A stretch of DNA of 64,000 nucleotides from Microcoleus vaginatus WJT46-NPBG5 (GTDB taxonomy: Bacteria > Cyanobacteriota > Cyanobacteriia > Cyanobacteriales > Oscillatoriaceae), in the NCBI GenBank assembly GCA_019359355.1, contig JAHHHM010000020.1, positions 62,001 through 126,000 on the forward strand, given 5' to 3'. Below the pieces are notes generated by a model. That model saw only the letters and a list, made by a program, of their open reading frames with translations. It was not told the DNA's origin and did no database searches. Numbering within the stretch: the first letter of the stretch is position 1; the number at the start of each line of letters is the position of its first letter. A program made the translations under genes and the position numbers. Below, piece after piece: positions 23,470 to 25,270 of the stretch.

Positions 23470-23475
23470 TCCGGA
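23470..23475 (+). promoter_or_regulatory. DIF1 motif (TCCGGA) upstream of patX
   Basis: TCCGGA lies 55 nt before the patX ATG. Published work on PatX (Elhai and Khudyakov) reports a DIF1 motif within about 69 nt upstream of every patX. In Anabaena DIF1 marks promoters induced in differentiating cells. A TATTAG at 23495-23500 could serve as the -10 element, although the 19-nt spacing is long. I see no GTA-N8-TAC NtcA site upstream. Confidence 0.6.
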
Positions 23476-23530
23476 TGATCCATTGGCAAGTGCGTATTAG
23501 GAGTAGAAAACTCTGATACGGACATTTCCC

Positions 23531-23713
23531 ATGCGGACTTGCGCCTTGATCGTCTTATCAAGTTTGCTGTTGGTTGGCTTTGTCGTTGATTCCCTAGGGA
23601 TTGATTCCGATTCGACTGAGTTGCTTCGAGCCAATTCTTTTCGCCATTCAACGCAAGCAGAAAACGAGGAGGAGATTTCTCCTCATCGGGGTAGTGGGCG
23701 AGTGGGTGGCTGA
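23531..23713 (+). CDS. patX: PatX: small HetR-inhibiting protein with HRGSGR pentapeptide motif
   Basis: A 60-aa protein with the two features that define PatX: a hydrophobic N-terminus (residues 5-19, ALIVLSSLLLVGFVV) resembling a signal or export segment, and HRGSGR at residues 52-57, three residues before the end. RGSGR is the peptide shared with PatS that binds HetR and triggers its inactivation. In the simple activator/inhibitor model the processed peptide diffuses between cells. The gene lies 654 nt upstream of hetR on the same strand, its usual neighbourhood, and has a TCCGGA DIF1 box 55 nt before the ATG. There is no clear Shine-Dalgarno. A longer overlapping ORF in another frame (23601-23981) has no recognisable features and is not preferred. 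Confidence 0.88.
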   Translation: MRTCALIVLSSLLLVGFVVDSLGIDSDSTELLRANSFRHSTQAENEEEISPHRGSGRVGG

Positions 23714-24367
23714 ATTTCTAACATCGTTTTCCCTCAAATTAGAATGCAGCCAACTTATGGGGGTTGGCAAGGCAGAGCCGGCGAAGGTAATAATCAAGCG
23801 TTTGCACAGCCAATACCGACCGCCTGGAACAGATGCCGAAGCCCCTTCAATACTGGCTACTGCTGCTGATCGCTCGGTCAGCCAAATGCCGCCTAATCCG
23901 GTTTTCTTTTGGCATCTGAACCCACTGCCAGATTTACCAAAAAGCTTTACCCCCTATTGTCAAAGGAAGTGTCACAATTAAATCATTGAAGGCTATAAAG
24001 TAAATGTCAGCAACTCCATGCTGAAAGGCGGGGTCTACTGAAGCCGAGCCGGACGCTCTCATCAGGGTAGAGCAAGCTTGACGTTAACCAGCCTCAGCCC
24101 TATCTTCGTACTGAGGCATAAGAACTGGGTAAATAGTTATTCAGTCTTGAAAGGTAGGGGCTTCCGCTGTCAGTAATTTTAATGGGTAGCAAGCTACATA
24201 ACTTTACGGATGCCTCACCTCCTCTCAAGGAAAGGGCGCATCTGAAGGCTGCTGACTCAAAGCGCCAAAATCGACATGACCGAATCTGGTTGTGTCGCAA
24301 CCATCATACGCAACAATCAACTGAGGAGCATTTGACTCCTCCTAATGTATCCGTCTTAAGGATTGTG
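23714..24367 (+). other. Long non-coding leader between patX and hetR
   Basis: About 650 nt without a credible gene. The hetR frame stays open back to 24182, but that extension is not conserved with known HetR and is probably untranslated. A 6-bp hairpin (GAGGAG at 24323-24328 with CTCCTC at 24336-24341) sits just upstream of the hetR ribosome-binding site. Multiple distal start sites are known for hetR in Anabaena, so promoters are expected here. Exact positions cannot be read. Confidence 0.5.
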
Positions 24368-25270
24368 ATGACCAACGACCTCGATCTGATCAAACGCCTT
24401 AGCCCCAGTGCCATGGATCAGATCATGTTTTATCTTGCATTCAGTGCCATGAGAACCAGTGGGCACCGGCACGGAGCGTTTCTAGATGCAGCCGCTACGG
24501 CGGCCAAGTGTGCCATTTACCAGACCTATCTGGAGCAGGATCAGAATCTGCGGATGACGGGGCACCTCCACCACATTGAACCTAAGCGGGTTAAGGCGAT
24601 AGTGGAGGAAGTCAAAGAGGCACTGACGCAGGGCAAACTCATGAAAATGCTTGGCTCTCAAGAGCCGCGCTATCTGATTGAGTTTCCCTATGTGTGGCTG
24701 GAACAGTATTCCTGGCTGCCCGGACGCCCGCGCATTCCTGGCACCAGCCTCACTTCTGAAGAAAAGCGACAGATTGAACAAAAACTGCCGCCTAACCTGC
24801 CTGACGCGCAACTGATCAACTCTTTCCAGTTCATGGAAATGATTGAATTCCTTTACGCCCGCCATCAGGAAGATTACCCTCCTGAGCGGCGTCTGCCCTT
24901 GAGTGAAGCGTTAGCAGAACACATTAAACGACGCTTAATTTGTGCCGGCACTGTCGCAAAGATTGATTCTCCTTGGGGAATGCCTTTCTATGCTCTCACC
25001 CGTGCCTCTTACTCGCCTTCGGGTGAAGAGGAGCGGACTTTCATCATGGTGGAGGATACCGCCCGGTATTTCCGGCTGATGAAGGATTGGGCGGAACGGC
25101 AGCCAAAGAAGGTGATGCGGATTTTAGAAGAACTCGATATCCCAGCTGATCGCATCGATCAAGCGATGGAAGAGTTGGATGAAATTATCCGCGCCTGGGC
25201 CGATAGATACCATCAGCAGGGGGAAAACACGATGATTCTGCAAATGGTTTTTGGCCCGAAGGAGGATTGA
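24368..25270 (+). CDS. hetR: HetR, master regulator of cell differentiation
   Basis: A 300-aa DNA-binding regulator that as a dimer activates differentiation genes and is inhibited by RGSGR peptides. I start it at ATG 24368, which has AAGGA five bases upstream and gives [18 protein letters not shown], matching the usual HetR N-terminus and length (299 aa in Anabaena). Conserved functional residues are visible: Cys48 (AAKCAIY), Ser152 (NSFQF), Ser179 (PLSEAL) and Arg223 in the hood domain, plus the acidic EELD cluster (254-257) involved in PatS-peptide binding. There is a one-residue insertion around 246-249 (QPKKVMR) relative to the Anabaena form as I recall it. With patX upstream it forms the regulator/inhibitor pair found in nearly all filamentous cyanobacteria. 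Confidence 0.97.

Follow-up and report, generated by a model that had tools for sequence, protein, structure and literature searches.

A PatX-HetR pair with a rare promoter box in a cyanobacterial genome that carries several PatX-type genes

The window, that is the whole 64 kb stretch of DNA analysed here, encodes a genuine PatX protein paired with a genuine HetR (Table 1). With its patX-hetR pair it adds one more case to an established type, the PatX-HetR pair of filamentous cyanobacteria, and the pair is ordinary for its group. Two things are newly seen here, namely the split between TCCGGA and TCCTGA boxes among the hetR-linked patX genes and the existence of five PatX-type genes beside one HetR. 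The source genome (G000) is a draft of 6.46 Mb in 44 contigs with a completeness of 99.63%. The first-pass annotation of the window had overlooked both the rarity of TCCGGA before hetR-linked patX (3/57) and the further PatX-type genes of the genome. The explanation that we favour, and consider probable, is a PatX-HetR cell-fate circuit in which several PatX-type precursors, made from one promoter type, act jointly on the single HetR.

Table 1. Features of the patX-hetR locus in the window and further PatX-type genes of the source genome
Feature	Position	Strand or arrangement	Basis
patX (patX1), 60 aa	23531..23713	+	NF047413, 36.4 bits (cut-off 30)
hetR, 300 aa	24368..25270	+	NF009718, 573.8 bits (cut-off 489)
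TCCGGA (DIF1 form) box, patX promoter	23470..23475	+	identical sequence and position in both congeners
Dyad, left arm (GTGCGTATTAG), imperfect; includes TATTAG	23490..23500	+	sequence symmetry
Right arm (CTGATACGGAC), about +7 to +17 relative to the putative transcription start	23513..23523	+	10/10 match to CTGATACGGA
patX-hetR interval, 654 nt	23714..24367	+	blocks conserved to Oscillatoria relatives
patX2, 58 aa, HRGSGR	C44:22752	-	PatX profile, E 5.6e-11
patX3, 142 aa, three RGSGR copies	C28:39821	-	PatX profile, weak match, E 0.019
Member A, 55 aa, end SGGRRA	G000 C32	tandem with B	promoter model and PatX-like N-terminus
Member B, 67 aa, end CRRDLVRHT	G000 C32	tandem with A	promoter model and PatX-like N-terminus

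In the PatX1 protein the HRGSGR motif occupies residues 52-57, and a hydrophobic stretch can be recognized by eye at residues 5-19 of the N-terminus. The TCCGGA box starts 61 nt upstream of the patX1 ATG, which leaves 55 nt between the two, and the distance from the patX1 stop to the hetR ATG (24368) is 654 nt. This arrangement had been put forward in the first-pass annotation, and both the coordinates and model NF047413 agree with it. The opinion that such a short gene is easily missed holds less well, since a curated NCBI model for PatX (NF047413) now exists. Pfam has no family for PatX, and NF047413 itself misses members, as it gave no match in six of the 20 genomes searched though patX was read in all six. 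In the interval between the two genes the strongest conserved blocks, in comparison with the Oscillatoria relatives, are found at 23970-24030 or thereabouts and just ahead of hetR; the interval is probably a separate hetR promoter or leader. A longer hetR, opening in frame at 24182, was considered and dismissed, because the frame is closed in locus L002 (by eye) and NF009718 spans residues 1-300 from 24368. A tRNA gene lies just downstream of hetR and is convergent to it (25404-25477, minus strand); with Rfam at gathering scores nothing besides one tRNA was found in the whole window.

The HetR protein is over the cut-off for Pfam HetR_C and Peptidase_S48 (PF18460 and PF03574) and is the only HetR copy found in the genome. 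Its closest named relatives are the HetR proteins of Oscillatoria princeps RMCB-10, Oscillatoria sp. PCC 10802 and Oscillatoria sp. Prado101, each 89% identical. The residues C48, S152, S179 and R223, as well as the EELD cluster, had been described as kept and were all found, the cluster occurring twice (254-257 and 268-271). The residues of Anabaena HetR that bind PatS6 are E253, E254, D256, D270, D278 and R223 (PMC4649674). Their equivalents in the HetR of the window are all present, as E254, E255, D257, D271 and D279, shifted by one insertion, together with R223.

A class-wide search found HetR at E <= 1e-60 in 149 of 291 genomes, and the DNA before hetR was examined in 60 of the 149, which were picked by hand. 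A hetR-linked patX was present in 44 of the 60 (45 frames, with one tandem pair) and missing in 16, 12 of which belong to family f6 and have patX elsewhere. Among the first 32 loci, 11 contained an RG(S/T)GR frame upstream of hetR on the same strand, in addition to the window. The alignment of 11 PatX proteins, whose rows had been selected for the motif, showed the start Met and HRGSGR as the sole invariant columns, the remainder being fast-changing. Conservation of the 60-residue frame in related genomes had been set as a test in the first-pass annotation; the two congeners indeed retain the patX1 frame, its HRGSGR, the TCCGGA box and its position (3/3 genomes). The search for PatX homologues with an HRGSGR tail, suggested at the same time, was also fruitful, and patX2 is among the further PatX-type genes found.

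The five PatX-type mini-proteins of G000, alongside one HetR, share a similar promoter type. On NF047413 patX3 scores 25.7 bits in one search and 27.3 in another, just below the cut-off of 30, and member A 24.0 bits over residues 1-35 only. The RG(S/T)GR motif is found in neither member A nor member B. Two promoter models were used for the searches. Model R1 was built from 57 hetR-linked patX promoters and, with 150 of 1004 candidates scored in G000, returned the patX2 promoter (1.2e-4) and two promoters on C32 (6.1e-5 and 0.115), which are about 240 nt apart and each precede a short open frame whose N-terminus resembles that of PatX; the patX3 promoter was not found among these 150 candidates. 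Model R2 was trained on 31 family promoters, including the five in G000, and with 150 of 1503 first-look candidates scored it gave the five PatX-type promoters at E <= 1e-9 and nothing further below E 0.32. Applied with stricter filters to a 145-genome sample of the class, R2 had matches at E <= 0.01 in 19 genomes. Nine matches were inspected, eight from this sample and one from the preceding R2 search; seven precede PatX-type frames, the exceptions being G033 and G097. Genes encoding GGDEF-EAL and CheW/response-regulator proteins neighbour members A and B at a distance of up to about 2 kb (L198, G000 C32), and a CheR gene lies within about 2 kb of patX3 of the Oscillatoria relative G005 (L207, G005 C36), where a CheW-like frame was also noticed by eye.

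In the favoured circuit HetR would be a DNA-binding regulator and PatX a small exported precursor, the HRGSGR end of which would be cut out and reach other cells, where it would bind the hood domain of HetR and release HetR from DNA. The inhibitor would be made from patX1, patX2 and patX3, the last of which carries three copies of RGSGR. A common promoter type, with a TCCNGA-like box at about -35 and a conserved stretch to the start codon, would place the PatX-type genes under a shared regulator, so that together they would set the inhibitor level on one HetR. The tandem RGSGR copies may raise the yield per transcript, while the common promoter may raise output from many genes. Export, cleavage, peptide binding and HetR/HetZ-dependent transcription are all transferred to this genome from relatives, and would operate here by analogy. 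PatX of Nostoc is exported and processed by PatP, and the hexapeptide HRGTGR binds and inhibits HetR (PMC12756182). The output of the circuit would be patterned specialised cells other than heterocysts, for example lysing cells that break the filaments, a conjecture in line with the patterned cell death for filament breakage already proposed (PMC7761841).

The main evidence against several precursors acting on one HetR comes from Leptolyngbya BL0902, a strain without heterocysts, in which the transcriptomes of patX, hetR and double deletions suggest that most of the action of PatX does not depend on HetR (PMC11298460). PatX may accordingly be seen as a secreted signal of its own, with its adjacency to hetR being historical or regulatory, and members A and B, in which RGSGR is lost but the N-terminus is still signal-like and the promoter of the same type, can be read in the same way. 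This reading is nevertheless unlikely in our opinion, given that the start Met and HRGSGR alone are invariant among the 11 PatX proteins, albeit chosen for the motif, and that the peptide-binding residues of HetR are all kept. The Leptolyngbya result leaves room for another receptor, which is in line with the members without RGSGR. It is conceivable, although we would not count on it, that PatX has radiated in the family into co-regulated exported peptides. Some would be RGSGR precursors for HetR, either with a single copy or polyprotein-like; others, still with the promoter type and the export signal, would have traded RGSGR for different short endings (SGGRRA, SGGRKN, CRRDLVRHT) and would serve another receptor or compete with the RGSGR peptide.

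The extra PatX-type genes could also be recent, decaying duplicates without function, considering that two members have no RGSGR and that patX1 itself is decayed in the relative G002. However, every genome of the genus (G000, G003 and G004) has patX2 and patX3, which span four genera of the family, and their pN/pS values are 0.17-0.34 for patX2 and 0.21-0.51 for patX3 within the genus, and 0.24 and 0.46, respectively, in the Oscillatoria pair G005/G006. We thus hold decay to be quite improbable. Relatives of both patX2 and patX3 exist in G005, G006, G001 and G002, and those of patX3 carry five RGSGR copies in G005, six in G006, three in G001 and two in G002. Member A was found in both congeners, G001, G005, G006 and, with a different ending, in G002, and member B in both congeners and G001; among congeners the pN/pS of the two members was 0.16-0.66. 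Taking the five PatX-type frames together, 14 of 15 congener pairs lay at 0.16-0.70, and one patX1 pair, with few changes, showed 1.05.

G002 retains the hetR-linked promoter, but has ATA in place of the patX1 start codon, and its PatX-like frame is interrupted after 17 codons; despite this decay patX2 and patX3 are intact. This loss fits redundancy among the precursors, as far as can be judged from the sequence. The ATA and the frame closure may also be a sequence error, G002 being a metagenome assembly.

NF047413 gave two to three matches at E <= 0.001 in each of eight family genomes, not all of them over the cut-off (in G000 two over and one under; in G002 none over). Matches over the cut-off were obtained elsewhere in G130 (f7, three), G284 (two) and G029 (f2, two), and multi-copy PatX is therefore not confined to the family of the window. 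The idea of one patX per non-heterocystous strain was rejected, as several genomes have multiple copies. One of the PatX-type frames over the cut-off (G284:C1:2567966, minus strand) ends in RGGGR instead of RGSGR. Tandem RGSGR was also observed in other PatX-type frames, with three copies in L105 and L027 and four in G135. In addition, locus L098 of another family (minus strand) encodes a hetR-linked PatX-type protein with eight RGSGR, whose frame begins 1407 nt away from that end of the examined stretch where hetR lies.

All 45 hetR-linked frames of the picked genomes are preceded by TCCTGA, in 41 cases at 57-68 nt from the ATG; the other four boxes are closer than -50, probably because the start codons were mis-called. 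Of 57 boxes before hetR-linked patX, with two duplicates left out and several close relatives making the rows non-independent, 54 read TCCTGA and three TCCGGA, the three being those of the window genome and its two congeners. These boxes were sought as TCC[GT]GA alone, a pattern that misses other forms, and for this reason L045, where the frame reads TCCGGG, was excluded from the count. TCCGGA is thus a rare form before hetR-linked patX and is confined there to the genus of the window. Since the nearest genera have TCCTGA, the TCCGGA form looks derived within the genus. The hexamer occurs nine times in the 64 kb, so it is weak proof alone, and the fixed position and conservation carry the assignment. 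Outside family f6 TCCGGA also precedes patX2 of G002, member A in the genus of the window, one of the two patX of G029 and the second patX of G073; the box as a strict heterocyst mark was therefore rejected, its form alone being no proof of kind. The fourth base varies among the paralogues, with TCCAGA before patX3 in the genus and in G005/G006, and the patX2 box of the same genomes reads CCCGGA.

DIF1 is placed at -35 of patX (Du et al. 2020, PMC7377430), and from this published position the putative start site of patX1 was located by analogy; the spacing makes TATTAG in the left arm the likely -10 element. The right-arm consensus CTGATACGGA was matched at at least eight of ten positions before the ATG in 27 of 53 promoters as against 1% of shuffles, a count from which four of the 57 rows with mis-called starts were dropped. 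The promoters counted also supplied the consensus, and many of them come from related genomes. At the same threshold it was matched in none of the 15 TCCGGA-type comparison promoters (14 from f6 and one from G029). The right arm is claimed more firmly than the dyad. The score of the window's own dyad was reached by 8/60 shuffles and is not significant alone, and only 10 of 31 family promoters had an inverted repeat reached by 2/60 letter shuffles or fewer. In alignment A1 the dyad pairing holds in 72.1% of cells compared with at most 49.5% in slid versions, and the covariation beyond shuffling is modest and its value inflated by relatedness. An RNA structure at the patX promoter was rejected, RNAalifold having given no consensus pair, and the dyad is better taken as a weakly supported DNA symmetry. 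Judging from their place near the inferred start, the arm or the dyad may be an operator.

No nifH over the cut-off was found in the 99.63% complete draft of G000 (best 220.5 bits against 394.35) or in the two congeners, which was the outcome of a check for nif genes advised in the first-pass annotation; the PatX-HetR pair here very probably serves something other than heterocysts. Such a role had been proposed on account of a missing NtcA site. There is indeed no GTA-N8-TAC in the 1500 nt upstream of hetR, the closest occurrences in the window being those at 18807 and 44377, and the role stands with the nifH result. The clue itself is weak, as only five of the 45 other hetR-linked patX frames have GTA-N8-TAC within 250 nt, so that a missing NtcA site is the norm among them. 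Of the two Oscillatoria relatives tested, nifH was over the cut-off in G006 and not in G005.

In family f6 patX was readable in 14 of the 15 genomes searched, with TCCGGA before all 14 and GTA-N8-TAC in 10 of the 14 promoters, 28-29 nt before the box. In this family nifH was over the cut-off in 8/15 genomes and in separated pieces in the other seven. These pieces, for instance G185:C1:227863-233993 and G252:C22:8857-21455, are as expected for inserted, developmentally excised elements. Because of TCCGGA, the NtcA site and nifH whole or in pieces, the f6 genomes are taken as likely heterocyst formers. That the pair of the window is the remnant of a lost heterocyst programme, kept by inertia, would agree with the TCCGGA box shared with these likely heterocyst formers and with the lack of nifH over the cut-off, but is very improbable in view of frames and promoters conserved in the genus, a right arm that about half of the hetR-linked patX promoters share but 0/15 TCCGGA-type comparisons do, no NtcA site, and TCCTGA in the nearest genera.

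The PatX-HetR pair was reportedly described by Elhai and Khudyakov in 2018, in whose abstract a DIF1-type box is said to lie within about 69 nt upstream of patX. The literature search, which covered titles and the starts of abstracts and is no proof of absence, returned no relevant publication on TCCTGA with hetR or patX and no description of TCCTGA boxes, of several PatX per genome or of PatX without RGSGR; both the TCCTGA form and genomes with several copies may be on record in the 2018 work. The pair of the window is like that of Khudyakov et al. 2020 (PMC7761841) in its small protein with a hydrophobic N-terminus and RGSGR, in the box at about -60 from the ATG and in the link to hetR, and the known pair also occurs in non-heterocystous filamentous cyanobacteria (PMC7761841). 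It differs in that here several PatX-type genes accompany one HetR, one with tandem RGSGR and two without RGSGR, and in the TCCGGA box without an NtcA site. As the extra copies are still PatX, they refine rather than contradict the known pair.

In Anabaena, PatS and HetN likewise provide the same pentapeptide to HetR from several sources (PMC7761841), whereas their precursors differ from PatX. The maturation of PatX by PatP (PMC12756182) is comparable in its exported precursor with an H-RG(S/T)GR end, export in the present genome being presumed by analogy, although more than one cut would be required where a precursor holds three to six copies of RGSGR. The HetZ-dependent DIF1 promoters (PMC7377430) share TCCGGA at -35 of patX, whereas the TCCTGA form and the downstream arm are not mentioned in the portions of that article available to us.

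More interesting than the pair itself are the rare box form, the arm kept in about half of the promoters and the set of PatX proteins around one HetR, in which some members resemble polyproteins and others lack the motif. The loss of patX1 in G002, with patX2 and patX3 kept, offers a natural test of redundancy. The role of hetR and patX in non-heterocystous filamentous cyanobacteria has been called a mystery (PMC11298460). With one HetR, several peptide genes, one recognisable promoter type and an apparent lack of nitrogenase, such a genome offers clear targets for deletion and a promoter for tagging, by which the ancestral role of the morphogen-like PatX-HetR pair could be put to a direct test.
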